This document shows, one piece after another, positions 6,610 through 41,724 of a stretch of 63,985 nt of DNA (the first letter of the stretch is position 1; each line of letters starts with the position of its first letter). The notes beneath the pieces were generated by a model, which was not told the DNA's origin, did no database searches, and saw only the letters and a program-made list of their open reading frames with translations. The translations under genes and the position numbers were made by a program. The DNA comes from Aciditerrimonas ferrireducens (GTDB lineage: Bacteria; Actinomycetota; Acidimicrobiia; Acidimicrobiales; UBA8190): contig NZ_JAKHEX010000015.1 of assembly GCF_023130475.1 (NCBI RefSeq), positions 1 through 63,985 of the forward strand, written 5' to 3'.

Positions 6610-6637
6610 GTATCGGCAGGCCGGTGCCCGAGGTGTA
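6610..6637 (-). promoter_or_regulatory. Sigma28-like promoter for flgN-flgK-flgL-fliW
   Basis: On the minus strand, TACA-N16-GCCGATAC, with the -10 element 7 bp before the flgN ATG. The -10 is exact and the spacer is the same 16 bp seen at nine other sites; the -35 matches TCAA in three of four positions only when read loosely. Transcription would start at or very near the start codon. Confidence 0.65.
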
Positions 6638-6654
6638 GGGCGAGCCTGGCCGGC

Positions 6655-7239
6655 TTACTGCTGGAGGACGAAGCTGCCGGTGAAGAGGACCTGGACCACC
6701 TGGGGCGAGCCGTCCACCGGGCCGAGGATCTGCTGGATCCGCGCCAGCATGGCCTGCTGGGCGGCGGCCCGGCCGCTCGGGGAGAGGAGCTGGGCGTAGG
6801 TGTCGGAGCCGAGGACCGAGATGACGGCGTTCTCGATGGCAGGCTCGTCCTTGGTCAGCTCCTTGCTGTTCGCCACCGTCGTGAGCTGCAGAGCGATGCC
6901 GGTCTGCACCAGTTTGCCGTCGGCGGTGGTGACGGTGATGGGGGAGGTCGTCGGGAGGGGGTAGACGACGCCGTCCGGGGCCGGGTGACCGGGCTGGTAG
7001 TGGGGCTTCAAGAACAGCCCCTTCTCCTTGAAGCCGATCAGGGCGAGGAGGACGACGGCGCCGATGAGCAGGGGCAGCTTCTTCTTCTTGGGCTTGCCCT
7101 CGGCAGCATCGTCCTTCTCTTTGCTCTTCCCCTTGGCGGCCTTCGGGTCGCTGGCCGGAGCCGGCCCGGCCGGGCGTTGCTCCCGGGTCGGCCAGCTTCG
7201 GGGGGCCTGGGGTGGGGTGGCAGGGCTCGGCATGCTCAT
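6655..7239 (-). CDS. fliL: Flagellar basal body-associated protein FliL
   Basis: 194 residues. A long basic cytoplasmic segment (residues 1-54, ending KKKK) precedes one membrane helix (about 55-70, PLLIGAVVLLALIGF), then a periplasmic-type domain with VYPLPTTSPITVTTADGKLV and the C-terminal FTGSFVLQ. FliL surrounds the MotAB stator and modulates torque. Its start overlaps the motB stop by 4 bp, which fits a role with the stator. Confidence 0.88.
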   Translation of the reverse strand: MSMPSPATPPQAPRSWPTREQRPAGPAPASDPKAAKGKSKEKDDAAEGKPKKKKLPLLIGAVVLLALIGFKEKGLFLKPHYQPGHPAPDGVVYPLPTTSPITVTTADGKLVQTGIALQLTTVANSKELTKDEPAIENAVISVLGSDTYAQLLSPSGRAAAQQAMLARIQQILGPVDGSPQVVQVLFTGSFVLQQ

Positions 7240-7991
7240 GGTTGTTGTTGTCCTGGTCCGAGGATCACGATGTCGACCCGGCGGTTGCGGGCCATGTTCG
7301 CCGGGGTGGTGTTCGGCGCCACCGGGTGGGTGCTGCCGAAGCCCAGGGCGACCAAGCGGTTGTGGTTGATGCCGTCGACCTTGTAGAGCCGGACGACGAC
7401 GTTGACCGCCCGCATGGCCGAGAGCTCGGTGTTCGTGGTGTAGGGGCCGCCGATGATCGGCTCGTCGTCGGTGAAGCCCTCGACGTCGATGGCGTTCGTG
7501 TCCGTGCGGAGCACCGAGGCGATGGTGTCGACCACCTCGTCCCCGGCCGGGCCGAGGCTGGCCGAGTCGATGGCGTAGAAGACCTTGTCCGAGAGGATCT
7601 GGACCACGAGACCCTGCTTGGAGATGGTCTCGGTGGCAAGACCCGAGAGGCCCTTGGCGGCCAGGGCCGCCTGGATCTGCTGGTCGATGGTGCTGAGGGG
7701 CTGCTGGCCAGGACTGGCCGAGGTGCTGGACGAGGCGGTGCTCGACTGGCTGCTGTTGCCAGGTTGGGTCGCCGAGGCGGTCTGGCTGCCGGCGGTGGGG
7801 ATGAGCGAGGCGTTCTGGAGCAGGCCGTTCGAGCTGGGCAGGAGGCCCGGGTTCGGGTTGAAGGTCTCCCGGAGGCCAAGGGCCAGGGCCTCGAACTTCT
7901 TCTGGTTGATGGTGGAGACGGCGAAGAGGACGATGAAGAGGGCGAGCAGCAGGGTGATCATGTCGGAGTAGGTGAGCAGCCAGCGCTCCAT
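7236..7991 (-). CDS. motB: Flagellar motor stator protein MotB
   Basis: 251 residues. A single N-terminal membrane helix, LTYSDMITLLLALFIVLFAV, holds the proton-binding aspartate (Asp10). After a Ser/Gln-rich linker comes an OmpA-like peptidoglycan-binding domain (about 140-240; TNTELSAMRAVNVV, then VALGFGSTHPVAPNTTPANMARNRRV). The cytoplasmic N-terminus is about 10 residues shorter than usual because the gene starts inside the end of motA (34-bp overlap). Translational coupling with motA is likely. Confidence 0.93.
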   Translation of the reverse strand: MERWLLTYSDMITLLLALFIVLFAVSTINQKKFEALALGLRETFNPNPGLLPSSNGLLQNASLIPTAGSQTASATQPGNSSQSSTASSSTSASPGQQPLSTIDQQIQAALAAKGLSGLATETISKQGLVVQILSDKVFYAIDSASLGPAGDEVVDTIASVLRTDTNAIDVEGFTDDEPIIGGPYTTNTELSAMRAVNVVVRLYKVDGINHNRLVALGFGSTHPVAPNTTPANMARNRRVDIVILGPGQQQP

Positions 7992-8776
7992 GCCAGCCGC
8001 CGGTTGGGCCGTTCCTGGCGGTCCTTCGGGGAGAGGTAGGCCTGGAGGCGGGCGTGGACCATACGGGGACTGGACCCGGCCTGGACGGCCAGGAGGCCCT
8101 CGAGGATCATCCGCTTGCCGTGGATCTCCAGCTCGCTGGCCCGCTTGAGCTTGTTCGAGATCGGCAGCCAGACGATGTTGGCCAGCATGACCCCCCAGAG
8201 GGTGGCCGTGAAGGCCGAGCCGATCGCCGGGCCGATCTCCGAGACATTGTTCAGCGAGCCGAGCACGTGGATGAGGCCGACCACCGTGCCGATGATGCCG
8301 AGGGTCGGGGAGAAGCCCCCCATGTCGGTGAAGAACTTCGCCCCCATCTTGTGGCGCTCCTGGATCGCCGCGATCTCCCCCTCGAGGATCTCCTGGATCT
8401 CCTCGGCGTCCACGCCGTCGACGGTCAGCTCGATGCCCTTCTTGAAGAACGGGTCGTCGACCTCGCTCGCCGCCTTCTCCAGGGCGAGGAGCCCCTCGGA
8501 GCGGGCCAGCTCGGCCAGGTGGACCATGCGCTGGATCTGGTCGTCAGGGGTCTCCTCGGGGGTCCCGATGGCCTGCTTCACGACCGCCTTCACGTTCTTC
8601 ACGTCGCTTTTCATGAAGCCGGCGGCCGAAGCCATGAGGGTGCCGCCCAGGACCAAGATGATCGGTGAGGGCTTGAAGAGCACGGCCGGGTTCGAGCCGT
8701 CCATCGTCATGGCCACGAAGATGGCGGCCAAGGCGCCCACGATGCCGATGACCGTCATCCGGTCGAGCTTCGTCAT
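7958..8776 (-). CDS. motA: Flagellar motor stator protein MotA
   Basis: 272 residues from ATG 8776. Four membrane helices are visible: two near the N-terminus (VIGIVGALAAIFVAMTM; ILVLGGTLMASAAGF), then a large cytoplasmic loop, then GFSPTLGIIGTVVGLIHVLG and a final one at ATLWGVMLANIVWLPI. The tail after KRMILEGLLAVQAGSSPRMV is family-typical. MotA and MotB form the ion-driven stator. The frame is open far upstream, but the start is fixed by homology and by the 4-bp overlap with flbD. Confidence 0.93.
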   Translation of the reverse strand: MTKLDRMTVIGIVGALAAIFVAMTMDGSNPAVLFKPSPIILVLGGTLMASAAGFMKSDVKNVKAVVKQAIGTPEETPDDQIQRMVHLAELARSEGLLALEKAASEVDDPFFKKGIELTVDGVDAEEIQEILEGEIAAIQERHKMGAKFFTDMGGFSPTLGIIGTVVGLIHVLGSLNNVSEIGPAIGSAFTATLWGVMLANIVWLPISNKLKRASELEIHGKRMILEGLLAVQAGSSPRMVHARLQAYLSPKDRQERPNRRLAWSAGCSPTPT

Positions 8777-9123
8777 CGGGCCGCTCCCTTCGGCGGCACC
8801 GGCGGCTCGGCCGGGGCGAGCAGACGCAGACGGGGCTCGACACCCGAGCCCGGCGGGGAGGGGACCGTGGCACCGTCGGGGCTCTCGGACGCGGTGGCGG
8901 CGGATCGGGCGCCGGCCGCGGTGGCCGCCACGTGGCCGGCACGGGCGAGGATCTCTGCCCGCTGCTGCAGGACCGCTGCGACGACCTGCTCGAGGGTCTC
9001 GGCCACCACGTAGCGGCTGCCGGTCACCAAGGTGACCACCGTGTCCGGTGTGGCTTCCACCCGCTCGATGAGGTCCGGGTTCAAGGCGAACCGTGCCCCT
9101 TGCAGGCGCGTCAGCGAGATCAT
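8773..9123 (-). CDS. flbD: FlbD family flagellar protein
   Basis: 116 residues from ATG 9123 (MISLTRLQG, FALNPDLIERVEATPDTVVTLVTG, YVVAETLEQVV). Residues 1-60 are the FlbD (SwrD-like) domain, which in Bacillus supports motor power by increasing stator levels. The Ala/Pro-rich tail of about 50 residues is extra. It starts the flbD-motA-motB-fliL unit and overlaps motA by 4 bp. AGGGGAGC lies just before the start. A sigma28-like promoter lies about 50 bp upstream. Confidence 0.88.
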   Translation of the reverse strand: MISLTRLQGARFALNPDLIERVEATPDTVVTLVTGSRYVVAETLEQVVAAVLQQRAEILARAGHVAATAAGARSAATASESPDGATVPSPPGSGVEPRLRLLAPAEPPVPPKGAAR

Positions 9124-9172: not shown

Positions 9173-9200
9173 GCATCGGCACGCAGGGTGGTGCCCTTGA
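9173..9200 (-). promoter_or_regulatory. Sigma28-like promoter for flbD-motA-motB-fliL
   Basis: Minus-strand TCAA-N16-GCCGATGC, an exact match to the window consensus, ending 49 bp before the flbD start. It lies in the 150-bp gap behind the upstream membrane-protein gene, so the stator genes have their own flagellar-class promoter. Confidence 0.8.
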
Positions 9201-9273: not shown

Positions 9274-9747
9274 TCAGCCGATGGCCGCTCCTTGCGGTGG
9301 TCCCGGGCGGGTGGGAGCGGACGGGGGGGCCGGGGTCGGCACCGGACCGGACGCCACGGCCGGGCCGCTCGGGGCGCCGGGCTGGCTTCCGGGGTTCGTG
9401 GGGCTCGAACCGCCCGGGCCGAGCGTCGCCTCGGCGGCGCGCCGCCGGGCTTCTTCGAGGAGCCGGCGCGCCGTCTCCTGGCGGGCCTGGTGCTCGTAGC
9501 GGCGGAGCAGGCCCCCGACCCCGGCAGCGGCCGCCCAGACCAGGAGCAGCGCCACGAGGAACCGGACCAGGGCATCGGTGGCCGGCACGGCACCGTCGAG
9601 GACCCCTGGGGCCATGGGGAGGCAGAGCAGGATGGCGACCGCCACCACGAGGCCCGGCCGGGCCACCCCGGCGCTGGCCGTCTCGGTCCCCGCCGAGCCC
9701 CGGCGGGCCGAGCGGCTCGCACCGTCCGAGCTGCCCGCTGCCTTCAT
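9274..9747 (-). CDS. Two-helix membrane protein of unknown function in flhA operon
   Basis: 157 residues from ATG 9747, which overlaps the flhF stop by 4 bp. It has a Ser/Arg-rich start, two adjacent membrane helices (ARPGLVVAVAILLCLPMAPGV and ALVRFLVALLLVWAAAAGVGGLL), a basic helix (RRYEHQARQETARRLLEEARR) and a Pro/Gly-rich tail. I do not recognise a family. The flhA-flhF context suggests a flagellar role, perhaps at the export gate or stator, but that is inference only. In other bacteria flhG often occupies this place. Confidence 0.65.
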   Translation of the reverse strand: MKAAGSSDGASRSARRGSAGTETASAGVARPGLVVAVAILLCLPMAPGVLDGAVPATDALVRFLVALLLVWAAAAGVGGLLRRYEHQARQETARRLLEEARRRAAEATLGPGGSSPTNPGSQPGAPSGPAVASGPVPTPAPPSAPTRPGPPQGAAIG

Positions 9748-10946
9748 CCCTCGACCAGCTCCTCGAGCAGCCGGGCCCAGTCCTCGGCCCCGAAGGCCCG
9801 GCCGTCGGCCACGAGGACGGGCAGGCCGAGTCGGAGCACGCTGGCTGGGCTGCTCGTCGCCCGTAGGCCGGTGACGCACAGACCACGGAGGCCCAGGTCG
9901 CCAGCCCAGCTGGCCACGTCCTCGGGCTTGTCGGTGGCGGCCACCATCCCGAGGGCGCAGGTCGGCGCCAGGGCGGTCAGGGCCTCCTCGGCGCGTCGCC
10001 GGTCCCGCGGGGCGTAGCCGGCGTCGAGCACCACCAGGCGGGGCCGCGTCCCCCGGGCGCCCCGAGACGCCTGCGGGGACGGCTCGCCGCGCGTCGAGGC
10101 GAGCGGCTGCTCGAGCAAGCGGCCATCGGCGCGCAGGACGGTGCAGTGCCCGGGCGGCTCGGGGAGGAGCCGGCCGAGGGCCCGGGCAGCGCCGAGGCCA
10201 AGCCGGCGAGGCCCGACGAGGACTGTCAGGTCCGTCGGCCCGGGGAGCGGGGGAGCGGGGGGCAGGTGGGAGAACAGCTCGGCCAGGGCCTCCCGCAGGC
10301 TCCGGCCCGCCTCCACAGCCCCGACGACGGCCTCGGCGTCCAGATCGGCCAAGCCGGCCCGGCGCAGGCGGCAGTCCAGGACCGGGTTCGAGAGACCCGG
10401 GCGAGCGGGGGTCGGCGGAGCGACGCGGGGTCGCCTCGGCCGCGCCGGTCGGGCCTGGGCCGGTCGGACTGGCGTCGGTCGAACCGGGGAGTGCTCGACC
10501 GGCGGCGCAGGGGGTTCAGCCAGGGCGGCGGCGGCCTCGGCGAGCAGCGCCGCGAAGGCCCCGGGGCCTGGCTCGGGTGGCGACTCGGGTGCTGGTCGGG
10601 GGACCGGGTCGAGGGCAGGGGCGGGGTCGGGAGCGGGCAGGGTGGCGAGGAGAGCGGGGGTCGGCTTCGGCTCGAAGTGGTCGCTGGCCGCGTCGGCCAG
10701 GGCAGCGAAGGGGTCGGGGCTCGGGGCGAGACGCTGGCCGAGCCGGGAGGCCGGCGCGGGCCCGGCCGGCGGGTCGGGTGGGGCGACCGTGAGGCGGTAG
10801 AGGAGCCGACCGGCCGGGCTGCGGAGGCTGCGGCGACGGGTCCGCTCGGCCTGGAGGATGGTGGCGGCGGGCCCGAGCTCCCGGCGGATCCGCTCCAGGA
10901 GGGGCTGGAGCTCGGGGCCTTCAAACTGCTGCGGCTGGGCTGGCAA
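9744..10946 (-). CDS. flhF: Degenerate FlhF-like protein
   Basis: 400 residues, TTG start at 10946 overlapping flhA by 26 bp, with GGAG upstream. The N-terminus (LQPLLERIRRELGPAATILQ ... LLYRLTV) is the FlhF B-domain, and a Pro/Ala-rich linker follows (about 60-190). The C-terminal half keeps the layout of an SRP-type GTPase but not its chemistry: the P-loop position reads VLVGPRRLGLGAARALG, without GKT or GKS, and the DTAGR motif is replaced by VLDAGYAPRDR. FlhF normally sets flagellar position and number as a GTPase. This copy probably cannot bind GTP in the usual way. Confidence 0.72.
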   Translation of the reverse strand: MPAQPQQFEGPELQPLLERIRRELGPAATILQAERTRRRSLRSPAGRLLYRLTVAPPDPPAGPAPASRLGQRLAPSPDPFAALADAASDHFEPKPTPALLATLPAPDPAPALDPVPRPAPESPPEPGPGAFAALLAEAAAALAEPPAPPVEHSPVRPTPVRPAQARPARPRRPRVAPPTPARPGLSNPVLDCRLRRAGLADLDAEAVVGAVEAGRSLREALAELFSHLPPAPPLPGPTDLTVLVGPRRLGLGAARALGRLLPEPPGHCTVLRADGRLLEQPLASTRGEPSPQASRGARGTRPRLVVLDAGYAPRDRRRAEEALTALAPTCALGMVAATDKPEDVASWAGDLGLRGLCVTGLRATSSPASVLRLGLPVLVADGRAFGAEDWARLLEELVEG

Positions 10947-12978
10947 CGTTCACCACTCCGATCCGTTCGATCTTGAGGTGGGGGGCGAGCTCGTGGACCG
11001 ACAGGACGGCCAAGCGGGGGGCGACGGCCGAGAGGAGGCGGTGGAGGGCGGGCCGGAGGCGGGAGGCGCAGAGCACGACCGCTTCCCGGCCTTGCTGCTC
11101 GACTTGGCGGATGAGCCCCTGGATCTCCTGGGCCAGGGCCTCGAGGGTCTCGGGCGGGGCGGCGAGCACCGACCCGTCGTCGCCGGGCCGCACCGCCTCG
11201 GTGAGGGTCCGCTCCAAGCGGGGATCCAAGGTGACCACCGCCAGGACCCCGTCGGTAGCGTACTGGCTGGAGATGGCCGGGCCGAGGGCCGCCCGGGCTG
11301 CTTCGATCAGGGCCTCGTGGTCCTTCGTGCCTGAGAGGCGGGCCCGCTCGGTGACCGCCTGGACGATGGAGACCAGGTCCCGGATGGCGACCCCCTCGTC
11401 GAGCAGCCCGGCGAGGACCCGGTGGAGGTCGGTGAGGGTGACCTGGGCGGCGGCCATCTCCTCCACGAGGGCCGGGTCGGTCTGCTTGAGGCTGTCGAGC
11501 AGGACCCGGACCTGCTGGGCGCTGAGGAGCCGGCCGGCGTTCGCCGTGGCCACCTCGCCGAGGTGGGTGGTGACGACCGAGGAGCGGTCGATGACGGTCG
11601 CCCCGGCCACGAGGGCCTGGTGCCGCAGCTCGGTCGGGATCCACTTCGCGGGCAGGCCGAAGACCGGCTCAGTGGTGGTCCCCCCGGGCAGGCGGTCGAT
11701 GCCCTCGCCGATGGCAAGGAGCCGACCGGGCGGGGCGGTGCCCCGGGCCACTTCGACGCCCTGGAGGCGGATGGCGTAGGCGTGGTCCGGCAGGGAGAGG
11801 TTGTCGCGGGTGCGGACCGGCGGGACGAGGACGCCGCGCTCTTGGGCCAGCTTGTGGCGCAGGGCCTTCACCCGGGCCAGGAGGTCCCCGCCCCGCTCGG
11901 GGTCCACCAGGTCGATGATGGTCGGGGCGAGCTCGAGCTCCAGGGGTTCGACCCGGGCCGCCGCCGCCAGGGCCTGGGGGGTGTCGAGGACCGGCTCAGC
12001 CTCGGCGGGCTCGGCCTCCGCCCCCTGCTCGGCTCGGGTCTCCTGGCGGGCGAGGCGGCGTCCGAGGAAGACGACGGCCCCGCCGGTCATGAGGAAGGGG
12101 ATGTTCGGCAGGCCCGGCACGAGGCCCATGACGAGGAGCACCGCCCCGGCGATGGTGACCGCCCGGTGCTGGCGGCGGACCTGGGAGAGCAGGTCCGAGC
12201 CGAAGTCCTCCTCGTCGGTGGCGGCCCGGGTGACCACGATGCCCGTGGCGATGGACATGAGGAGGGCCGGGATCTGGGAGACCAGGCCGTCGCCGACCGA
12301 GAGCAGGCTGTAGGTGTGGACCGCCTGGGTGACCGAGAGGTGCTTCTGGACGATGCCGACCCCAAGGCCCCCGAGCAGGCTGATGGCCACGAGGACCACC
12401 GCGGCGATGGCGTCGCCTCGGACGAACTTCGAAGCCCCGTCCATGGCCCCGTAGAAGTCGGCCTCGTTCGCGATCTCCTGCCGCCGCCGGCGGGCCTCCT
12501 CCTGGTCGATGAGCCCGGCGTTCAGGTCCGCGTCGATGGCCATCTGCTTGCCGGGCATGGCGTCCAAGGTGAAGCGGGCCGCCACCTCGGCTACCCGGCC
12601 CGCCCCGGAGGTCACGACGACGAACTGGATGACGATGATGACCAGGAACACCACGAGGCCCACCACCAGCTGGCCGCCCACCACGAAGTGGCCGAACGCC
12701 TCGACCACCGAACCGGCGTTCGCGTGGAGGAGGATGAGCCGGGTGATGGAGACGTCCAGGGCCAAGCGGAACAGCGTGGCGACCAAGAGGACCGAGGGGA
12801 AGACCGAGAAGTCCAGGGGCCGCTTCACGTGCATGGTCATGAGCAGGACCACGACCGCCCCGGTGATGTTCGCCGAGATCAACAGGTCGACCACGATCGT
12901 CGGCATGGGCACGACCAGCATGACCACGATGAGGATCACGCCGGTCGGGACGCCGATCAGGCCGAAGCGCTTCTGCAT
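10921..12978 (-). CDS. flhA: Flagellar export gate protein FlhA
   Basis: 685 residues, close to the family's 690. The N-terminal half contains the membrane helices (GVILIVVMLVVPMPTIVVDL onward), the conserved FPSVLLVATLFRLALDVS and the FHIPEP-type cytoplasmic signatures (MPGKQMAIDADLNAGLID and the EADFYGAMDGASKFVRGDA loop). The C-terminal cytoplasmic half (from about 360) is the substrate and chaperone platform. FlhA is the core of the flagellar type III export gate. It heads the flhA-flhF-unknown unit, and a sigma28-like promoter lies 90 bp upstream. Confidence 0.96.
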   Translation of the reverse strand: MQKRFGLIGVPTGVILIVVMLVVPMPTIVVDLLISANITGAVVVLLMTMHVKRPLDFSVFPSVLLVATLFRLALDVSITRLILLHANAGSVVEAFGHFVVGGQLVVGLVVFLVIIVIQFVVVTSGAGRVAEVAARFTLDAMPGKQMAIDADLNAGLIDQEEARRRRQEIANEADFYGAMDGASKFVRGDAIAAVVLVAISLLGGLGVGIVQKHLSVTQAVHTYSLLSVGDGLVSQIPALLMSIATGIVVTRAATDEEDFGSDLLSQVRRQHRAVTIAGAVLLVMGLVPGLPNIPFLMTGGAVVFLGRRLARQETRAEQGAEAEPAEAEPVLDTPQALAAAARVEPLELELAPTIIDLVDPERGGDLLARVKALRHKLAQERGVLVPPVRTRDNLSLPDHAYAIRLQGVEVARGTAPPGRLLAIGEGIDRLPGGTTTEPVFGLPAKWIPTELRHQALVAGATVIDRSSVVTTHLGEVATANAGRLLSAQQVRVLLDSLKQTDPALVEEMAAAQVTLTDLHRVLAGLLDEGVAIRDLVSIVQAVTERARLSGTKDHEALIEAARAALGPAISSQYATDGVLAVVTLDPRLERTLTEAVRPGDDGSVLAAPPETLEALAQEIQGLIRQVEQQGREAVVLCASRLRPALHRLLSAVAPRLAVLSVHELAPHLKIERIGVVNVASPAAAV

Positions 12979-13067: not shown

Positions 13068-13095
13068 GTATCGGCTGCGTCGGGCCCAGGGTTGA
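13068..13095 (-). promoter_or_regulatory. Sigma28-like promoter for flhA operon
   Basis: Minus-strand TCAA-N16-GCCGATAC, an exact consensus match ending 89 bp before the flhA start. Its -35 element covers the TTG start codon of the divergent truncated glycosyltransferase. Confidence 0.8.
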
Positions 13096-17243: not shown

Positions 17244-17271
17244 GTATCGGCAGCGGCCAACGTTCGCTCAA
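17244..17271 (-). promoter_or_regulatory. Sigma28-like promoter for the 963-residue glycosyltransferase
   Basis: Minus-strand TTGA-N16-GCCGATAC. The -10 is exact and lies 7 bp before the GTG start, so the message is probably leaderless; the -35 deviates from TCAA at two positions. The 11 bases GCCGATACCAG are identical to those before flgN. Confidence 0.6.
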
Positions 17272-17295: not shown

Positions 17296-17323
17296 TCAAG
17301 GACCGGCTCGGACCGGCCGATCC
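17296..17323 (+). promoter_or_regulatory. Sigma28-like flagellin promoter
   Basis: TCAA-N16-GCCGATCC, predicted start near 17331, giving a leader of about 97 nt before the fliC ATG. It lies back to back with the promoter of the divergent glycosyltransferase. Confidence 0.82.
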
Positions 17324-18183: not shown

Positions 18184-18212
18184 CGACGAGGGTCGGGAGC
18201 CACAAGGCGTGC

Positions 18213-18247
18213 CGAGGGGAGGGGAGGGCCTGCCTCCCCTCCCCTCG
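18213..18247 (+). terminator. Strong hairpin terminator after flagellin
   Basis: A perfect 15-bp stem (C plus GAGGGGAGGGGAGG and its complement) with a 5-nt loop GCCTG, starting 30 bp after the fliC stop. There is no U tract, as is common in high-GC actinobacteria. It should cap the abundant flagellin message and limit read-through into fliD. Confidence 0.8.
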
Positions 18248-28993: not shown

Positions 28994-29012
28994 TCGTAGC
29001 GACGGGCCTGTG

Positions 29013-33465: not shown

Positions 33466-33532
33466 GCCCCGGGCCCCGAGGCCAAGCATCCAAGCGACCG
33501 GTCCCGACCACACAGGCAAGGAGAGCGACGAG

Positions 33533-34015: not shown

Positions 34016-34085
34016 TTGAGCCAACCAGCACCACCGTTTCGACGACCAGACGCCACGAACCGACGACCACAAGGAGAAAGACACC

Positions 34086-35408
34086 ATGGAACGATCCCTG
34101 ATCGCCGCCACCTCGGGCATCGAGGCGAACCAGACCTATCTGGACGTGATCGGCAACGACATCGCGAACGCCAACACCACGGCCTTCAAGTCCCAGAGCG
34201 TCTCGTTCGCCGACCTGCTGAACGAGCAGGTCGCCGGCGCGACCGCCCCCACGGCCACCTCCGGTGGGATCAACCCCTACGCCGTGGGCTCGGGGGTGAA
34301 GGTCGGGACGGTGAGCGAGAACGACACCCAGGGCACCATCGAGCAGACCAACGTCCCCACCGACGTGGCCATCCAGGGCAACGGCTACCTCATCGCCAGC
34401 CAGAACGGCCAGACCCTCTACACCCGCGACGGCCAGCTCTCCACCGACGCGAACGGGCAGCTCGTCGCGCCGAACGGCGCGCTCATCCAAGGCTGGATGG
34501 CCCAGGGCGGGGTGGTGAACACGAACGCGCCGGTCGGGAACATCACGATCCCGCTCCAGTCGACGGTGCCGGCCACCGAGACCACGAACATCACTCTCGG
34601 CGGAAACCTGCCCGCCAACTCAGGAAGCGGCACCAACCCGGTGAGCTTCACCACCGATGCCTACGACTCCTTGGGGAACACGGTCCCGATCACGGTGTCG
34701 TTCTACCCGACCAGCACCGCTGGCCAGTGGACCATGGTGGTCACTGCCGAGTCGACTTCTTCATCGGGTACGACAACGACCTCCGACATCGTTGGGACAC
34801 CACCGACCTCCAGTAGTAGCGCCAGCGGGCCCACCGTCACCTTCCAGAACGGCCAGCTGAGCGGCATCTCCGGTGGTACCCAGAACGCGAACGGTTCCTG
34901 GACGGTCCAAGGGACCTGGCCGACCGGCAGTCCGTACACCTTCGGGACGACAACGGTGGACTTCACCTTCCCAGCACCGGGCTCCTCCGGCGCCGTCACC
35001 CAGTTCGCCGGGAACCAGTCGATCTCGGCGACGAGCCAGAACGGTTCCCCGGCGGGGAGCCTGCAGAGCTTCTCGATCGGGGCGGACGGGACCATCACCG
35101 GCACGTTCTCGAACGGCCAGAGCCAGACCATCGGCCAGATCGCCCTGGCGACCTTCGCCAACCCGCAGGGCCTCACGGACCTCGGGAACCTGATGTACCA
35201 GTCGACGGTGAACTCCGGGCAGCCGGTCATCAGCGCCCCGGGCTCGGGCGGGGCCGGCACCTTGGTGGGCGGGGCCCTGGAGCAGTCGAACGTGAGCCTG
35301 TCGAAGGAGCTCACGGACCTGATCGTGGCCCAGGAGGCCTACCAGGCGAACACGAAGGTCATCACCACCACGGACCAGGCGGTCCAGTCGCTGCTGCAGG
35401 TGCCGTGA
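34086..35408 (+). CDS. flgE: Flagellar hook protein FlgE
   Basis: 440 residues from ATG 34086, AAGGAGAAAG upstream. The N-terminus (IAATSGIEANQTYLDVIGNDIANANTTAFK) and C-terminus (LTDLIVAQEAYQANTKVITTTDQAVQSLLQ) are hook/rod signatures, and GSGVKVGTV and LTDLGNL are FlgE-typical. It polymerises into the hook. No flgF or flgG is seen nearby. Confidence 0.93.
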   Translation: MERSLIAATSGIEANQTYLDVIGNDIANANTTAFKSQSVSFADLLNEQVAGATAPTATSGGINPYAVGSGVKVGTVSENDTQGTIEQTNVPTDVAIQGNGYLIASQNGQTLYTRDGQLSTDANGQLVAPNGALIQGWMAQGGVVNTNAPVGNITIPLQSTVPATETTNITLGGNLPANSGSGTNPVSFTTDAYDSLGNTVPITVSFYPTSTAGQWTMVVTAESTSSSGTTTTSDIVGTPPTSSSSASGPTVTFQNGQLSGISGGTQNANGSWTVQGTWPTGSPYTFGTTTVDFTFPAPGSSGAVTQFAGNQSISATSQNGSPAGSLQSFSIGADGTITGTFSNGQSQTIGQIALATFANPQGLTDLGNLMYQSTVNSGQPVISAPGSGGAGTLVGGALEQSNVSLSKELTDLIVAQEAYQANTKVITTTDQAVQSLLQVP

Positions 35409-35427: not shown

Positions 35428-35455
35428 TCAACCGCGGCGCCGGCGTTGCCGATGC
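35428..35455 (+). promoter_or_regulatory. Sigma28-like promoter for fliM-fliN-fliOPQR-flhB
   Basis: TCAA-N16-GCCGATGC, exact consensus, 19 bp after the flgE stop. The predicted leader to the fliM start is about 100 nt. The rest of the 158-bp gap holds no gene. Confidence 0.8.
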
Positions 35456-35566: not shown

Positions 35567-36517
35567 ATGGTGGCGCTCAGGACGGAGGAACAGGAGATGC
35601 CGGCGGGCGAGCCGGCGTCGGAGAACGGCGGCCGGCGGGTCCGGCCCTACGACTTCCAGCGCCAGGAGGCCCTCGACCGGGGCCGGCTGCGGCGCCTGGA
35701 GCCGGTGCTCGAGGTGCTGGCCCACCGGATGGCGGGGGCCCTCACGAGCACCCTGCGGCTTGCCAGCAAGGTCGAGGTCGGCGAGCTAGACCAGCAGCGC
35801 TGGGAGCACTACGCGGCCAGCCTGCCCGAGCCGACCTTCCTCTGCTCGGCCACCGTCGTGCCCTACGGCGGCCGGATCGTCCTGCACCTTCCCCTGCCCT
35901 TGGCGCTCACCGCGGTGGAGCTCCGCATGGGGGGCACGGGCCGGCCGGCCCCCGAGCCCCGGGCCCTCACGGAGATCGAGCAGCGGCTGGTGAGCGACCT
36001 GGCCCAGCGGATGCTGGCCGAGCTGCCCCCGGCCTTCGCCCCGGTGCTCAACGTGTCCATCGGGGCGCTCAGCTCGGTGGCGAGCAGCATGTTCCTCCAG
36101 GCGGTCAAGCCCACCGAGATGTGCCTCATCGTGGCCCTGCGGGTGGTGCTCGGAGACCTGGACGGGGCGGCGGCCAGCCTCTGCGTGCCGATCTCGGTGC
36201 TGCTGCCCATCCTCGACGCCTTGGAGCGCCTCGACCAGACCGAGGGCGGCGAGAGCCACGCGGACGCCAGCCAGGTGCGCCTCCGGGAGCGCCTGCTCGA
36301 GGTGCCGGTCGAGGTGGTGGTCTGCTTCCCCGACGTCTTCCTGCCGCCCGAGGAGCTCCTGGGACTGCGGCCCGGGGACGTCGTGCCCCTGCACCGGGAA
36401 GTGGACAAGGCCCTGCAGCTGCGGGCCGAGGGTGAGCCCTACCGGTCGGTGCGCCTGACCGCCCGGGGCAAGCGGCTGGCCGCGGTGGTGGTCGAGGACG
36501 AGGAACGGGAGGCGTGA
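35567..36517 (+). CDS. fliM: Flagellar motor switch protein FliM, short N-terminus
   Basis: 316 residues from ATG 35567 (ATG 35597 also possible). The middle domain begins VRPYDFQRQEALDRGRLRRL and contains PLPLALTAVELRMGG and LTEIEQRLVSDLAQRML. The C-terminal SpoA-type FliN-like domain is at about 240-310 (LEVPVEVVVCFPDVFLPPEELLGLRPGDVV). The N-terminal CheY-binding peptide (LSQ-EIDALL type), present in most FliM, is missing; only about 25 unrelated residues precede the core. It overlaps fliN by 4 bp. Confidence 0.9.
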   Translation: MVALRTEEQEMPAGEPASENGGRRVRPYDFQRQEALDRGRLRRLEPVLEVLAHRMAGALTSTLRLASKVEVGELDQQRWEHYAASLPEPTFLCSATVVPYGGRIVLHLPLPLALTAVELRMGGTGRPAPEPRALTEIEQRLVSDLAQRMLAELPPAFAPVLNVSIGALSSVASSMFLQAVKPTEMCLIVALRVVLGDLDGAAASLCVPISVLLPILDALERLDQTEGGESHADASQVRLRERLLEVPVEVVVCFPDVFLPPEELLGLRPGDVVPLHREVDKALQLRAEGEPYRSVRLTARGKRLAAVVVEDEEREA

Positions 36518-36972
36518 TCGTGGAGAGCGTGCAGGAAGCGACAGTCCTCGGAGCAGCGGAGCAGCCCGGCACTCCCGAGGCTGCGGGGGGCCCGGTCCCG
36601 GCCAGTGCACCGGAGCCGGGCCCCGGCGGGACGCCCGCGGAGGGGCCGCGGCCAGCGGCCGCCCCGGCGCCGGCCGCCGCTGCGGTGGCCGCGGCCATGG
36701 GCGGGACGGGGAGTGGCGCGGGGAGCCGACACGCCCTACGGGTCCTGCAGAACGTCGAGCTGGCGGTCACCGTCGAGCTGGGCCGGGCCCGGCTGGCGGT
36801 CCGGGAGCTGCTGGAGCTGCGGGCCGGCTCGATCGTCGAGCTGGACCGGGCCGCCGGGTCCCTGGTGGACGTCATGGTGAACGGCACCCTGCTCGCCCGG
36901 GGCGAGGTGGTCGTGGTCGACGACGAGCTCGGCGTCCGGATCACCGAGGTGGTCGGCGGGGAGCCGGCGTGA
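36514..36972 (+). CDS. fliN: Flagellar motor switch protein FliN
   Basis: 152 residues, GTG start in the fliM stop. The first 70 residues are Pro/Ala-rich linker. The SpoA domain occupies about 70-150 (LQNVELAVTVELGRARLAVRELLELRAGSIVELDR, then DVMVNGTLLARGEVVVVDDELGVRITEVV). FliN forms the lower C ring, which switches rotation and docks FliH-FliI. It overlaps fliO by 4 bp. Confidence 0.93.
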   Translation: MIVESVQEATVLGAAEQPGTPEAAGGPVPASAPEPGPGGTPAEGPRPAAAPAPAAAAVAAAMGGTGSGAGSRHALRVLQNVELAVTVELGRARLAVRELLELRAGSIVELDRAAGSLVDVMVNGTLLARGEVVVVDDELGVRITEVVGGEPA

Positions 36973-37760
36973 ACCGGGCCGCTGCGCACCCGGCGCTGGC
37001 CCACCGGGCGTCGGCCCACCGGGCGGCGGCCTCCCCCGTGGCGAGCGTCGGGCACCGGGCGGCGACGGGCAGCGCCCATCTGGCCGGGTCCCTCGGTGCC
37101 CAGAGCATCTCGGCCACCAGCCTCCTGTTGCAGCTGGCGGTCGGCTTGGCGGTGGTGGTCGGCTTGGTCTACCTCACGGCCCGCCTGCTGCGGGGCCGCC
37201 TGGGGGCACGGCTGACCGGTGCTGGGTCCCGGGGAGCCCGGTCGGCTCGGGGCCAGGCGGTGGCGGTGCTCGGCCGCCAGAGCCTCGGCAAGGGGGTGTC
37301 GGTGGCCCTCGTGCAGGTGGCGGAGCGGGCCTACCTGCTCGGGGTGACCCCGGGCCGGGTGCAGAAGGTGGCGGCCCTGGACCCGAGCGCTCTTGGGACC
37401 GGGGGACCCGAGGAGCCGAGCGCCGGTCCGCGACGCTGGCTGGCAGCCGGCCGGCCCGGGACGGCGTCGGGGTCACCGGCCCTGCCGGCCTGGGTGCAGA
37501 AGGTGCCCGGCCTCTCGGGCCTAGAAGCCCGGCTGCGGGCGGCGACCGGGCACGAAGGGTCGGGCGAGGCGGCCCGGCCAGCGGGCACGGGGCCGAGCGC
37601 ACAGGCGGAGCGGCGCCGAAACGACGGGAGTCGTGGCGGCGGGAGCGGGACGGGCCAGGGACGGGCCCGGACGAGGTCCCAGGCGGGCCGGCGGCCCGCT
37701 GGGGACGAGACATGGACGTCGGCCATCGCAGAGCTCAAGGAGCGCCTCGAGCGGGTCTGA
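36969..37760 (+). CDS. fliO: FliO-like flagellar biosynthetic protein
   Basis: 263 residues. One membrane helix (about 47-68, LLLQLAVGLAVVVGLVYLTARLL) precedes a small beta domain (VAVLGRQSLGKGVSVALVQVAERAYLLGVTPGRV) as in FliO; the rest is a long basic, disordered tail. FliO helps FliP assemble in the export gate. The call depends on helix, domain pattern and position between fliN and fliP, since FliO is poorly conserved. Confidence 0.8.
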   Translation: MNRAAAHPALAHRASAHRAAASPVASVGHRAATGSAHLAGSLGAQSISATSLLLQLAVGLAVVVGLVYLTARLLRGRLGARLTGAGSRGARSARGQAVAVLGRQSLGKGVSVALVQVAERAYLLGVTPGRVQKVAALDPSALGTGGPEEPSAGPRRWLAAGRPGTASGSPALPAWVQKVPGLSGLEARLRAATGHEGSGEAARPAGTGPSAQAERRRNDGSRGGGSGTGQGRARTRSQAGRRPAGDETWTSAIAELKERLERV

Positions 37761-37875
37761 CCCGCCGCGCTCGACTGGACCTGGAGGACCGACACGTGAA
37801 GGACGCTCCGACGGGGCTCGACCCGGCGCGCCCGGGGAGGGCCCGGCGTCAGCACCACACGCAGGAGCGGGGACC

Positions 37876-38592
37876 GTGCTGAGCAGCGTGCTGCCCGGCC
37901 TGCTGCTCGGCGGCCACCTGCTGGCCGCCGGCTCGTCGATCACGGTGAACCTGGGGCGGACCCTGTCGAAGCCCTCGGAGAGCATCGTGGTGCTGCTCGC
38001 CGTCACCTTGCTGGCGGTGGCGCCCTCGCTGCTGATCCTGCTCACCGGGTTCACCCGGATCGTCATCGTGCTGTCACTGACCCGCAACGCCCTCGGGCTG
38101 AACTCGGTGCCGCCGAACCAGGTGCTGGCCGGCCTCGCGCTGTTCTTGTCGCTGTTCTTGATGATGCCGACCCTGAAGCAGATCAACCAGGTGGCCGTCC
38201 AGCCCTACCTGCACGGCAAGGAGACCGCCGTCCAGGCCTACCGGGCCGCCGAGGAGCCGCTTCGGTCCTGGATGCTCGAGCAGACCGGCGGCTCGGAGCT
38301 GGCGCTGACCACCGGCATCGACCACGAGCATCCGGCCAAGCCCCAGGACGTCTCCATGGCCGCCCTGGTGCCCGCGTTCTTGCTCTCGCAGCTCAAGTCG
38401 GCGTTCATCATCGGGTTCGTCATCTTCGTGCCGTTCCTCATCATCGACCTCGTGGTCTCCTCGGTGCTGATGTCCATCGGGGTGGTCATGCTGCCCCCGA
38501 CGCTCGTGTCCTTGCCGTTCAAGCTGCTGCTGTTCGTCATGGTGAACGGCTGGGTGCTCGTGACCCACACCGTGCTGGTGAGCTTCCGATGA
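37876..38592 (+). CDS. fliP: Flagellar export gate protein FliP
   Basis: 238 residues from GTG 37876 with CAGGAGCGGGG upstream. Diagnostic segments are SLLILLTGFTRIVIVLSLTRNALGLNSVPPNQVLAGLALFLSLF, ALVPAFLLSQLKSAFIIGF and MSIGVVMLPPTLVSLPFKLLLFVMVNGW. FliP forms the core of the FliPQR export channel. The frame is open further upstream, but the start is fixed by the site and by family length. Confidence 0.95.
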   Translation: MLSSVLPGLLLGGHLLAAGSSITVNLGRTLSKPSESIVVLLAVTLLAVAPSLLILLTGFTRIVIVLSLTRNALGLNSVPPNQVLAGLALFLSLFLMMPTLKQINQVAVQPYLHGKETAVQAYRAAEEPLRSWMLEQTGGSELALTTGIDHEHPAKPQDVSMAALVPAFLLSQLKSAFIIGFVIFVPFLIIDLVVSSVLMSIGVVMLPPTLVSLPFKLLLFVMVNGWVLVTHTVLVSFR

Positions 38593-38861
38593 CCGACGTC
38601 GAGGTCACCCACCTTGGGATGCAGGCCCTGCTGATGGCGGCGAAGCTCGCCGCCCCGGTGCTGCTGGCCAGCTTGACGGTGGGCTTGGCGGTGTCGCTGT
38701 TCCAGTCGATCACCCAGCTCCAGGAGATGTCCCTCACCTTCGTGCCGAAGCTGGCGGCGATCTCGCTGGTGCTGCTGGTGGCCGGGCACTGGATGCTGAA
38801 CCAGTTCGTGGGCTACGTGGACAACCTCTTCGCCCACGCGGCGGTGCTGGCCGGCGGTTGA
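38589..38861 (+). CDS. fliQ: Flagellar export gate protein FliQ
   Basis: 90 residues with two membrane helices (MAAKLAAPVLLASLTVGLAVSLFQSITQLQEMSLTFVPK, then LVLLVAGHWMLNQFVGYV). Overlaps fliP by 4 bp. It packs around FliP-FliR in the export channel. Confidence 0.95.
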   Translation: MTDVEVTHLGMQALLMAAKLAAPVLLASLTVGLAVSLFQSITQLQEMSLTFVPKLAAISLVLLVAGHWMLNQFVGYVDNLFAHAAVLAGG

Positions 38862-38879
38862 GGCGCGCGAGGCGGGGCG

Positions 38880-39659
38880 GTGCAGGTCGACCTGAGCGGG
38901 CCCTGGCTGCTCGCGGTGCTGCTCGGCACGGTCCGGGCTGCGGCGTGGCTGGCGGTGGTCCCCCCGTTCTCGACGGCCATGACCGGGGGGATGCCGAGGA
39001 TGGCCCTCATGGGGGTGGCGGTGGGCCTCGGGGTGCTCTCGGCCCCCCTGCTGCTGGCCCACGGGGTGCCGACGAGCACTGCCGGGCTCATCGGCCAGGT
39101 GGTCCTCGGGGTCTTCGTCGGGGCCGCCCTCGGGTTCGTGGTGCGGCTGCTGGTCTCGGCGGTGGCCGGGGCGGGGAGCCTCGTGGACCTCTTCGGGGGG
39201 ATCACGCCCCTGCCGGCCTACGACCCGGTCTCCGCCAGCGAGATCCCGATCGTCGGCCAGCTGTACGACCAGCTGGCCATCGTGGTGCTCTTCGCGTCGA
39301 ACGGGGAGCTGCTCGTGATCCAGGGGTTTGAGACCTCGTTCCGGGTGAGCGGGGGCCCGATCGACCATTTCGGCGGGACGGTCCTGCCCGGGGTGCTGGC
39401 CAGCGGACTGGCGACGTTCTTCACCGCGGCGCTCGAGATCGCCGCCCCGATCCTGGTGGTGCTGTTCTCCTTGCAGGTGGCCCTGGCCCTGTTGGCCAAG
39501 GCGGCGCCGCAGGTGAACGCCTGGTGGCTGGGCCTGCCCCTCCAGGTCGTCTTGGCCCTGGTGCTCACGGCCTTCTCGCTGCGGGTGGTGCCAGGAGCCT
39601 TGGCGAACCTGCTGCAGGTCATGGTGGGGGACGTCCGGGCCCTGGTGGGCCTGGGCTGA
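38880..39659 (+). CDS. fliR: Flagellar export gate protein FliR
   Basis: 259 residues, GTG start 38880, 18 bp after fliQ. It is hydrophobic with about six membrane helices. Family elements are RAAAWLAVVPPFS, the GALGF-like VGAALGFVVRLLVSAV and the C-terminal VNAWWLGLPLQVVLALVLTAFSL. It completes the FliPQR channel that FlhB wraps. Confidence 0.93.
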   Translation: MQVDLSGPWLLAVLLGTVRAAAWLAVVPPFSTAMTGGMPRMALMGVAVGLGVLSAPLLLAHGVPTSTAGLIGQVVLGVFVGAALGFVVRLLVSAVAGAGSLVDLFGGITPLPAYDPVSASEIPIVGQLYDQLAIVVLFASNGELLVIQGFETSFRVSGGPIDHFGGTVLPGVLASGLATFFTAALEIAAPILVVLFSLQVALALLAKAAPQVNAWWLGLPLQVVLALVLTAFSLRVVPGALANLLQVMVGDVRALVGLG

Positions 39660-39674
39660 ACGGGGAGCGCCGCG

Positions 39675-40775
39675 ATGGCCAGGCGGGACGAGCGCACCGA
39701 GAAGCCCACCCCGAAACGCCGGCGCGAGGCCCGCCAGGAGGGCCGGATCGCGAAGACCCCGGAGCTGGCCGGCTGGCTGGCCGTCCTGGTGGCCTCCATG
39801 GCGCTGCCGGCGGCCTTCGGCGACGGGGAGCGCCGGGTCCTCGGGGTGCTGGCCCAGGCGAGCCACGTCATGGCCGATCCGACCAGTGCCGGGGCCCTCG
39901 CGGTGCTGCGCACCGGTCTGGTGGCCGCCGCCGAGATCGTCTTGCCGGTGGCGGGGGTGATGGCCGCGGTGTCGCTTGCTGCGACCGCGGCACAGGTCGG
40001 CCCGGTGCTGGCCTGGAAAGCGGCCCGTCCCCAGTTCTCCCGGCTCAACCCCTTGACGGGCATCAAGCGGCTGTTCTCCGCCCAGTCCCTCTGGATGCTC
40101 GCGAAGGAGGTCCTCAAGCTGGCGGTCATCGGGGCGCTCGCGTACCGGACGATGGACGCCATGGTGCGGCTCATGCTCGGAGCGCAGCTGACCGGCATCG
40201 GCCCCGCCGTGGCCTACGCCGGGGGCGCCCTGGTGGGCCTGGTGCGCCAGGTGGCCCTGGCCGGGCTGGTGCTCGCCGGGTTCGACTACGCCTTCCAGCG
40301 CCGCCGGGTCGGCCAGCAGCTGAAGATGACGAAGCAGGAGGTGAAAGAGGAGTTCCGCCAGCACGAGGGCGACCCGCTGCTCAAGGGCCAGATCCGCAAG
40401 AAGCAGCGGGCCCTCTCCCGGCTGCGCATGATGGCCGCGGTGGCGAAAGCGGACGTGGTGGTGACGAACCCGACGCACGTCGCGGTGGCACTGCGTTACG
40501 AGCCGGGCAGCGGCCAGGCCCCCCGGGTCGTGGCCAAGGGCGCGGACCACCTGGCCGCCCGGATCCGGGAAGAAGCCCGGCGACATGGCGTCCCCGTCGT
40601 CGAGGACCCGCCCCTGGCCCGGGCGCTGCACGCCGCTTGTGACCTCGACGACCTGGTCCCCGTCGAGCTCTACCTGGCGGTCGCCCGGCTCCTCGCCTTC
40701 GTCTTCACCCTCCCCGACGTGGTCCGCCGCTCGGGCCGGGTGCATCGCCGGCCGGTCTCGGCCATGGTCGCGTGA
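39675..40775 (+). CDS. flhB: Flagellar export switch protein FlhB
   Basis: 366 residues. N-terminal EKPTPKRRREARQEGRIAKTPEL, four membrane helices, then LKMTKQEVKEEFRQHEGDPLLKGQIRKKQR and the autocleavage motif NPTH in VVVTNPTHVAVALRY. FlhB changes export specificity from hook to filament after FliK's signal. It is 15 bp behind fliR. The C-terminal tail (RSGRVHRRPVSAMVA) is longer than usual. Confidence 0.95.
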   Translation: MARRDERTEKPTPKRRREARQEGRIAKTPELAGWLAVLVASMALPAAFGDGERRVLGVLAQASHVMADPTSAGALAVLRTGLVAAAEIVLPVAGVMAAVSLAATAAQVGPVLAWKAARPQFSRLNPLTGIKRLFSAQSLWMLAKEVLKLAVIGALAYRTMDAMVRLMLGAQLTGIGPAVAYAGGALVGLVRQVALAGLVLAGFDYAFQRRRVGQQLKMTKQEVKEEFRQHEGDPLLKGQIRKKQRALSRLRMMAAVAKADVVVTNPTHVAVALRYEPGSGQAPRVVAKGADHLAARIREEARRHGVPVVEDPPLARALHAACDLDDLVPVELYLAVARLLAFVFTLPDVVRRSGRVHRRPVSAMVA

Positions 40776-40873
40776 GGCCGGGGTTGTCGACAGGAGGGGA
40801 GGGTTCCAGTGGCGGCGGGCGAGGCGAGGACCGAGGATGGACGGGTCCGGGGGGAGCGAGGGAGGGGCGGGTG

Positions 40874-41674
40874 ATGGTCGAGGAGCGAGGCGGGGTCGAG
40901 GAGGCGGGGGTCGAGGAGGCAGCCCTCGATGCCCTGGTGGGTCGCTGGGCCATGCTCCGGCCGGCCGACGGCCAGCCGGTGGAGGCGGCGGGAGGAGCCA
41001 GGGGGGCACGGCCAGGGGTCGGCCCGACGGGGTCGGCCGGCTCGCCGGGCGGCGGCCAGGTGGTGTCCCTCGCCGGGGTGGTCCTCGCCGACGACGCCGT
41101 CGAAGCGGCGGTCATGGCCCTCGAAGGCGGGGTGCTGCGCTGCGAGACCCGGGACCGGCGCGCCGCGGGGCTCGACGAGCGACCGGTGCTGGTCGAGTTC
41201 GGCACCCCCGCCGCCATGCTCCAGGTCCCCGCGACGGCGCGGGTGCTGGTGAGCTGGCCCCTGCCGGTCGTGCTGGCCCTGACCCCGAGCGGGCCGGTGG
41301 AGCAGTACCAGCGGCGGGTCTGGGTGCGGGTCCCGGTGGCCGTGCCGGTGGAGGTGGCGGTGGCGGCCACAGTGGAAGGGGAGGCGGGCAGCGAGGAGCC
41401 TCGGGTGGCGACGGTGAGCCGGGACCTCTCGGCGGGGGGCTGCCGGCTGGAGCTCGTCCCGGGCCTCGAGCGGCTCGGCCCGGGGGACGAGCGGAGGGTG
41501 GTGCTGGGCCTCCCGGACCAGCCGCTCGTGCTGGCCGCCCGGGTGGTCGGCCGGGGGGAGCGGGATCGGACCCTGCGCCTCGAGTTCCTGGCGCCGCCCG
41601 AGGCGGCGGTGAAGCGGCTGCTGCGGTTCGTCTTCGACGTGCAGCTCCGCCAGCGCCGGGGCCAGGACCCCTAG
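40874..41674 (+). CDS. PilZ-domain c-di-GMP receptor, YcgR-like
   Basis: 266 residues from ATG 40874 (GTG 40871 just before). The C-terminal PilZ domain (about 155-265) has both c-di-GMP elements: RRVWVRV (the RxxxR motif) and DLSAGGCRLE (the D/N-x-S-x-x-G motif), with a preceding YcgR-N-like beta domain (ALEGGVLRCETRD ... VLVSWPLPVVLAL). Such proteins bind c-di-GMP and slow the motor or act on export. It is the first gene after flhB, only 98 bp away, so probably co-transcribed. Confidence 0.87.
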   Translation: MVEERGGVEEAGVEEAALDALVGRWAMLRPADGQPVEAAGGARGARPGVGPTGSAGSPGGGQVVSLAGVVLADDAVEAAVMALEGGVLRCETRDRRAAGLDERPVLVEFGTPAAMLQVPATARVLVSWPLPVVLALTPSGPVEQYQRRVWVRVPVAVPVEVAVAATVEGEAGSEEPRVATVSRDLSAGGCRLELVPGLERLGPGDERRVVLGLPDQPLVLAARVVGRGERDRTLRLEFLAPPEAAVKRLLRFVFDVQLRQRRGQDP

Positions 41675-41696
41675 CGCGCGGGCCCACAACGGGCCG

Positions 41697-41724
41697 TCAA
41701 GGCCGGGCCCGGGCGTGCCGATGG
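41697..41724 (+). promoter_or_regulatory. Sigma28-like promoter for the GAF/degenerate GGDEF gene
   Basis: TCAA-N16-GCCGATGG, exact consensus, 40 bp before the GTG start. Places this signalling gene, and possibly the overlapping argG, in the flagellar regulon. Confidence 0.78.

Follow-up and report, generated by a model that had tools for sequence, protein, structure and literature searches.

The DNA studied here is a stretch of 63,985 nucleotides (nt) from contig NZ_JAKHEX010000015.1 of Aciditerrimonas ferrireducens (order Acidimicrobiales), and is called the window below (positions 1-63,985). It carries a flagellar gene cluster whose transcription units are preceded by a common motif, TCAA-N16-GCCGAT, predicted to be a WhiG-type promoter. 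The motif is a real, conserved set of FliA/WhiG-type sites, and its promoter activity is predicted from sequence. The genes of the cluster, assigned by Pfam or by reading of the translated frames, are as follows.

2823..3143, plus strand: csrA (PF02599), convergent with fliW
3104..6602, minus strand: flgN-flgK-flgL-fliW; FlgN (PF05130) and FliW by Pfam, flgK and flgL by reading and by tblastn order in relatives
6655..9123, minus strand: flbD-motA-motB-fliL; FlbD (PF06289) and MotA by Pfam, motB and fliL by reading
9744..12978, minus strand: flhA and an FlhF-like gene, the latter without a Pfam match
14345..17236, minus strand: GT2 glycosyltransferase (PF00535)
17428..20865, plus strand: fliC-fliD; flagellin and FliD by Pfam
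21084..23513, plus strand: tandem group 1 glycosyltransferase (PF13692, PF00534)
23718..28158, plus strand: flgB-flgC-fliE-fliF-fliG-fliH; FlgB-like rod protein and FliF by Pfam, the others by reading
28165..28785, plus strand: low-GC methyltransferase gene (Pfam Methyltransf_23), inserted between fliH and fliI
29010..35408, plus strand: fliI, fliJ-hydrolase frame, fliK region, flgD and flgE; fliI and the fliJ frame by Pfam, the others by reading
35567..41674, plus strand: fliM-fliN-fliO-fliP-fliQ-fliR-flhB-PilZ; fliM, fliN, fliP and PilZ by Pfam, the others by reading
41765..42865, plus strand: protein with GAF and degenerate GGDEF domains (Pfam scores below cut-off), closing the flagellar block

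An earlier note, made from the letters of the window, had claimed ten motif sites with a 16-nt spacer in this cluster, six of them exact in both boxes. All ten were found where it had put them (its coordinates ran over two trailing N beyond the GCCGAT box), and the six exact sites are those of flbD, flhA, fliC, fliI, fliM and the GGDEF-like gene.

6612..6637, minus strand: predicted WhiG promoter of flgN-flgK-flgL-fliW, TACA-N16-GCCGAT, 9 nt ahead of the flgN ATG
9175..9200, minus strand: predicted WhiG promoter of flbD-motA-motB-fliL, exact
13070..13095, minus strand: predicted WhiG promoter of flhA and the FlhF-like gene, exact
17246..17271, minus strand: possible WhiG promoter of the GT2 glycosyltransferase gene, TTGA-N16-GCCGAT, 9 nt ahead of the GTG; weak alone
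17296..17321, plus strand: predicted WhiG promoter of fliC-fliD, exact
21021..21046, plus strand: possible WhiG promoter of the tandem glycosyltransferase gene, TTCA-N16 or TCAG-N15
23557..23582, plus strand: predicted WhiG promoter of flgB-flgC-fliE-fliF-fliG-fliH, ACCGAT box
28802..28827, plus strand: predicted WhiG promoter of fliI-fliJ-flgD-flgE, exact, directly 3' of the inserted methyltransferase gene
35428..35453, plus strand: predicted WhiG promoter of fliM-fliN-fliO-fliP-fliQ-fliR-flhB-PilZ, exact
41697..41722, plus strand: predicted WhiG promoter of the GAF/degenerate-GGDEF gene, exact

The flgB site differs from the motif by one mismatch, and the flgN site and the two glycosyltransferase sites by two each. 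The sites have the build of a FliA/sigma28-type promoter (a TAAA-like -35 box, a GCCGAT(AA) -10 box and fixed spacing) with TCAA as the -35 box; TAAA is used in several relatives, and the AA that ends the classical GCCGATAA shows no conservation here. In two units, flgN and the GT2 glycosyltransferase gene, the distance from GCCGAT to the start codon is 9 nt. If transcription starts 6-9 nt past the box, these two messages (6602-6637; 17234-17271) may be leaderless.

Motif scans covered the window and the genome assembly (2.65 megabases (Mb), 43 contigs, 85.4% complete). Exact matches in the window numbered six at spacer 16 and one each at spacers 21 and 24; the remaining 14 spacers of the range 8-24 had none. 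The whole genome held 15 exact TCAA-N16-GCCGAT sites, compared with 24 for the other 16 spacers of the same range taken together (mean 1.5 each), and the N16 pattern read backwards had no match anywhere in it. A local coding signature of at least 0.22, computed by one script for both sets, was found at none of the 15 N16 sites (highest value 0.20, at C24:5920) and at 19 of 23 other-spacer sites (C40:67222 was left out). With up to one mismatch, the window contained 11 matches at N16 and 0-7 at other spacers; with up to two mismatches there were 59 matches, compared with 27.2 (standard deviation 5.4) in shuffled sequences. Because the signal weakens at looser match levels, the two-mismatch sites of the window are not significant alone.

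The order as a whole was represented by a sample of 298 genomes. In these, the median N16 density was 4.22/Mb in 196 genomes with a match to the sigma factor described below and 4.25/Mb in 102 genomes without one (p 0.39), and raw N16 matches across the order at large are mostly background. Subtraction of the backward-pattern count gave 3.87 for the sigma-positive and 2.67 for the sigma-negative genomes (p 0.002), but the gap perhaps reflects composition, because the backward count itself differs between the groups (0.25 and 0.66, respectively). Motif density was dropped as cross-genome evidence, the two groups being alike, and the reading is based on spacer, position and conservation instead. 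The equal densities and the frequent two-mismatch matches would speak for a motif that arose by chance from GC-rich composition and codon usage. This explanation is nevertheless very improbable, as it is contradicted by the spacer specificity, the non-coding position, and the conservation of the sites at the heads of transcription units and ahead of pilin genes.

For the unit heads, conservation was assessed in stretches of 17 relatives. The comparison took in genes whose tblastn match began no later than residue 60 and which had at least 200 bases upstream; fliI was counted among the non-head stretches, and a gene matched in two adjacent stretches counts twice. Of 64 stretches upstream of unit heads, 11 held an exact TCAA/TAAA-N16-GCCGAT site; of 155 upstream of other flagellar genes, none did. 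When one mismatch was allowed, the 64 head stretches gave 23 matches at N16, 15 at N15 and 0-5 at other spacers, as against 3, 4 and 0-8 in the 155 others. On these counts, N15 with TCAG or TCAA is regarded as a second accepted form in the relatives. A separate FliM-based set of relatives (named genomes; 30 loci, mostly Firmicutes and Acidobacteria) was little used.

Support differs between individual units. The early export gene flhA was found in 65 of the 298 genomes, and 27 of 30 loci could be anchored at the start (3 were left out). Counting the present genome, 12 of these 27 had an exact TCAA site within 450 nt upstream (10 N16, 2 N15), and 20 had a site deviating by no more than one letter at spacers 15-17, that of L086 being far from the usual position. 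At the same tolerance, the unit-head comparison of the relatives yielded sites in 14 of 17 flhA stretches, 5 of 5 relatives for flgB (none exact), 7 of 13 for flbD, 5 of 8 for flgN and 4 of 9 for fliC (exact in G154). The flbD site is exact in G154, G173 and G204, and lies at a near-equal distance in G154 and G204 though the spacer letters differ. The two-mismatch site of flgN gains support because TACA-N16-GCCGAT recurs in G086 and G204 at the same distance within a base, and that of the 21021 glycosyltransferase because one of four relatives (G154) has an exact site.

The fliI unit differs from these. No site was found ahead of fliI in 8 of 8 relatives, and a conserved fliI promoter was rejected. 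The methyltransferase gene next to it (28165..28785) has a GC content at third codon positions of 0.51, compared with 0.87 and 0.91 in its neighbours. As fliI adjoins this inserted gene and the relatives have no site, the predicted fliI promoter was probably created or carried in by the methyltransferase insertion. Further along this unit, 30404-31966 is a single frame of 520 amino acids with FliJ, NlpC/P60 and transglycosylase SLT domains, possibly a fusion or a frame with an internal start. Besides flhB of the window, a partial FlhB-like protein (PF01312, profile positions 173-288) was seen near chemotaxis genes (L201:15861-16580).

The earlier note had asked for the fliA/whiG gene, and one gene over the FliA/WhiG cut-off was found (C9:47070-47741). 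It scored 270.8 bits with TIGR02479 (cut-off 189.6), the next-best gene remaining below the cut-off at 113.6, and 364.6 bits with the NCBIfam WhiG model NF004935 (cut-off 343). The closest solved relative is WhiG of S. venezuelae (6pfj_A, E 2.6e-92), compared with E 7.4e-47 for the best FliA. By reading, the gene is flanked by a xerC-like recombinase gene on one side and by rpsB-tsf-pyrH on the other; in Streptomyces, too, whiG adjoins rpsB-tsf. In the sample, the sigma was detected in 196 genomes at E 1e-50, of which 187 were over the cut-off. No match was obtained in the 85.4%-complete assembly for FlgM (positive in 3 of 14 control genomes) or for sigma54 (RpoN; positive in 4 of 14), and neither a FlgM-checked nor a sigma54-dependent hierarchy was recognised within this assembly.

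Outside the window there are nine further exact N16 sites, as follows.

C1:57887: PAS-GGDEF gene
C1:89928: PAS-GGDEF-EAL gene
C14:30158: GGDEF gene
C23:88772: fliS
C23:116048: type IV pilin gene, 49 nt ahead of the ATG; the gene follows pilM- and pilO-like genes
C1:353038: gene of a 457-residue protein without a Pfam match
C9:54573: gene of a protein that, by reading, resembles an exported repeat protein, cut by the contig end
C24:5920 and C40:41610: two unclear downstream genes

The regulon list was confined to exact sites, with a few placed sites added; one- and two-mismatch matches were dropped for this purpose as too noisy (120 one-mismatch matches). A TCAG-N15-GCCGAT sequence about 63 nt ahead of a gene for a PAS-containing methyl-accepting chemotaxis protein, upstream of CheW genes, is a possible site and stands outside the regulon count.

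A pilin match was present in 15 of the 17 genomes of the family. The upstream regions of 18 of 30 pilin loci were tested (12 weak or further copies were left out, and 2 of the 18 had fewer than 100 bases upstream). An exact site was found in 11 of the 18, the present locus included (10 TCAA/TAAA-N16-GCCGAT, 1 N15), and all 11 begin 142-158 nt ahead of the prepilin motif. Of the remaining spacers between 8 and 24, N9 alone gave an exact match, and only one. Five genomes with exact pilin sites (G123, G179, G225, G245 and G264) had no flhA match in assemblies that are 77-94% complete. G123 has 22 pilin-like matches, and all three of its tested loci carry an exact N15 or N16 site. A predicted promoter common to flagellar and pilin genes, as in Actinoplanes, is seen here for one pilin gene.

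GGDEF domains were matched 23 times in the genome, and three of these genes have an exact site, each near the gene start. Two of the three proteins retain GGDEF or GGDEL; in the GGDEF-EAL protein, which has EALVR, a pattern search found no GGDEF-like motif. The same kind of search detected no such motif in the 41765..42865 protein of the window, which scored below the Pfam cut-offs for both GGDEF (21.2 bits, cut-off 23.8) and GAF_2 (21.1 bits, cut-off 28.6).

In Streptomyces and Rubrobacter, WhiG is bound by the anti-sigma factor RsiG together with cyclic di-GMP (c-di-GMP). No RsiG motif was found in the stretches of the present genome that were searched first. A scan with the pattern E(X)3S(X)2R(X)3Q(X)3D led to one open reading frame in the relative G060, which matches the solved RsiG proteins of Streptomyces and Rubrobacter. 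With this protein as query, 172 of the 298 genomes gave a match, including the present one (C40:53710-54204, E 2.6e-25). The protein scored 85.7 bits with PF22802 (cut-off 27) in two stretches, and a profile of 13 homologues matched 6pfj_T with E 9.7e-32. Its predicted model (predicted local distance difference test, pLDDT, 83.5) has the antiparallel coiled-coil fold of RsiG and matched 6pfv_T with E 4.3e-7 and template modelling (TM) scores of 0.70/0.76; the four fold matches of the model below E 0.001 were all RsiG chains of 6pfv and 6pfj. Both c-di-GMP motifs of a twin-motif RsiG are present, EASVSFLRRLVQGRLD intact and EAALSSARRALHERID with H for Q. This exchange is described in parts of PMC8325347 as frequent among homologues and compatible with stacking.

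WhiG and RsiG occurred together in 160 of the 298 genomes, WhiG alone in 36 and RsiG alone in 12 (Fisher p 9e-33, uncorrected for relatedness, with cut-offs of E 1e-50 for WhiG and E 1e-3 for RsiG). The 65 flhA-positive genomes comprised 49 with both, 10 with WhiG only, 3 with RsiG only and 3 with neither. At L234, rsiG (7705-8250) lies about 1.4 kilobases from a same-strand GAF-GGDEF-EAL-DICT gene (9627-12005) that has TCAG-N16-GCCGAT at its start. According to a portion of PMC13232838, the GGDEF domain of Streptomyces RmdB binds to WhiG and impedes its binding by RsiG; it is conceivable by analogy that the degenerate GGDEF protein at 41765..42865 acts on WhiG-RsiG like the inactive GGDEF domain of RmdB.

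From these data we infer that WhiG reads the predicted sites, and we consider it quite likely that it drives the flagellar cluster, the type IV pilin gene and the c-di-GMP enzyme genes as one regulon, probably held inactive by c-di-GMP-dependent RsiG. Reasoning from the Streptomyces and Rubrobacter complexes, RsiG with c-di-GMP would sequester WhiG. At high c-di-GMP, RsiG would hold WhiG, and flagella and pilin would be off together; a drop in c-di-GMP would free WhiG. In that case the cell would make export gate, basal body, motor, hook and filament all together and not in tiers, and the GGDEF and EAL proteins of the regulon would feed back on the c-di-GMP signal.

The proposal of one flat sigma28 regulon in the earlier note finds support in part: a sigma gene is present, FlgM and sigma54 were not found in the 85.4%-complete assembly, and the motif stands ahead of early (flhA, flgB-fliF, fliM-flhB) as well as late (fliC, fliS) genes. 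It was incomplete in that the predicted regulon reaches beyond flagella. A flat design is the simplest reading, because early and late genes alike carry the motif and no FlgM or sigma54 was found; as a prediction from sequence it is largely supported and is the best reading. It is improbable that the WhiG promoters are genuine and expression is tiered all the same, early operons having additional sigmaA promoters under a master regulator and WhiG acting as a booster. Such an arrangement would suit flgB: this gene heads the basal-body operon, its box here is the weaker ACCGAT, and none of the five relatives has an exact site. The box-to-start distances of 91-182 nt (flhA, fliC, fliM, flgB, fliI) also leave space for further promoters. 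The failure to find FlgM and sigma54 in this assembly and the exact sites ahead of the early gene flhA speak against it.

Several observations weigh against the single WhiG regulon, the equal motif densities, the background nature of most raw N16 matches and the lack of a fliI site in relatives being among them. Four of the ten window sites are imperfect; the 17246 glycosyltransferase site is without support from relatives (0 usable rows), and for fliM only 2 of 6 relatives showed a site within one mismatch, in one case at an unlikely distance. Of the 15 exact sites, C24:5920 and C40:41610 precede genes without identification, and C1:353038 and C9:54573 precede uncharacterised, exported-looking proteins. 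The absence of FlgM and sigma54 was read from an 85%-complete assembly. The sigma is present in 59 of 65 flhA-positive and in 137 of 233 flhA-negative genomes, and the latter number indicates that it is not purely flagellar. RsiG was not matched in 10 of the 59 flhA- and sigma-positive genomes, including G032 (one contig, 99% complete), indicating that RsiG gating is not universal. Six of the 65 flhA-positive genomes (G043, G073, G116, G147, G199 and G261) gave no sigma match at E 1e-50. As a separate observation, G043 and G073 nevertheless have promoter-like sites ahead of flhA; an assembly gap or a diverged sigma may account for this.

The genomes without detectable RsiG, and the PilZ gene in the fliM-flhB operon, would also fit a regulon that is driven by WhiG without RsiG as its c-di-GMP switch, WhiG being set by its own synthesis or by another partner and c-di-GMP acting elsewhere, e.g. 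through PilZ. We regard this as unlikely, since the RsiG of the present genome retains both c-di-GMP motifs and the predicted fold, and WhiG and RsiG stand together in 49 of the 65 flhA-positive genomes.

RsiG-gated WhiG control of the regulon bears on the question of what role the c-di-GMP-gated, flagellar-type sigma switch of Streptomyces had before sporulation, in an order where 49 of the 298 genomes sampled have WhiG and RsiG as well as flhA. If true, the flagellar system would be switched in one step instead of in tiers. We put it at slightly better than an even chance that, in flagellated Acidimicrobiales, WhiG-RsiG is a one-step master control of lifestyle: c-di-GMP-bound RsiG would silence the flagellum in all its stages at once, along with the type IV pilin and some of the c-di-GMP network, control of pilin would persist in relatives that lost flagella, and the sporulation switch of Streptomyces and the pilus switch of Rubrobacter would be remnants of an older swim-and-attach switch. 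Excerpts from PMC10746217 place Acidimicrobiia among the classes with 41-91% flagellated species, describe later classes as without FlgM, and report more GGDEF proteins in flagellated species of Actinobacteria; the regulon offers a candidate mechanism for this link between flagella and c-di-GMP enzymes. Twin-motif RsiG is recorded for 3 of 4 Acidimicrobiales in sections of PMC8325347, which tie the switch to pili in Rubrobacter and name no flagellated case with RsiG. Among the papers listed by a literature search (titles and abstract beginnings, with few subscription papers covered), none describes WhiG-RsiG control of flagella. The new part is the extent of the regulon (flagella, pilin and c-di-GMP enzymes) combined with RsiG, and the flat idea itself has precedent.

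The classical FliA/FlgM hierarchy of E. coli and Salmonella uses a FliA-family sigma, a GCCGAT -10 box and a spacer of 15. The present system shares the sigma family and the -10 box, but differs in that FlgM was not found in the 85.4%-complete assembly, early genes have the motif too, and the spacer is 16.

Streptomyces is not known to have flagella. Its WhiG-RsiG pair serves sporulation, and WhiG has flagellar promoter specificity (both from passages of PMC8325347). The likeness to Streptomyces lies in the twin-motif RsiG and in whiG beside rpsB-tsf; the use for sporulation there contrasts with the flagellar cluster here.

For Actinoplanes missouriensis, Jang et al. 2016 reportedly proposed a flat flagellar regulon, with a common promoter of the form CTCA-N15-17-GCCGAA and a single sigma serving every flagellar gene. 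WhiG-like sigmas direct flagellar and type IV pilus genes in this species, which has no RsiG, according to part of PMC8325347, and three FliA-family sigmas act in sporangium development, according to part of PMC13293333 (further background on Actinoplanes in portions of PMC11064477 and PMC10733313). As in A. missouriensis, FliA-type promoters are predicted ahead of flagellar and pilin genes in the present genome; unlike there, one gene is over the FliA/WhiG cut-off, RsiG is encoded and the box is GCCGAT.

In Rubrobacter radiotolerans, extracts of PMC8325347 describe a (RsiG)2-(c-di-GMP)2-WhiG complex and WhiG-type promoters before type IV pilus genes and genes for diguanylate cyclases and phosphodiesterases, and Rubrobacteria are listed without flagella in a part of PMC10746217. 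The combination of WhiG with RsiG, and of the motif with pilin and c-di-GMP enzyme genes, is shared with the present genome. Rubrobacter has a single-motif, dimeric RsiG and pili without flagella, whereas here a twin-motif RsiG is found together with a flagellar cluster.

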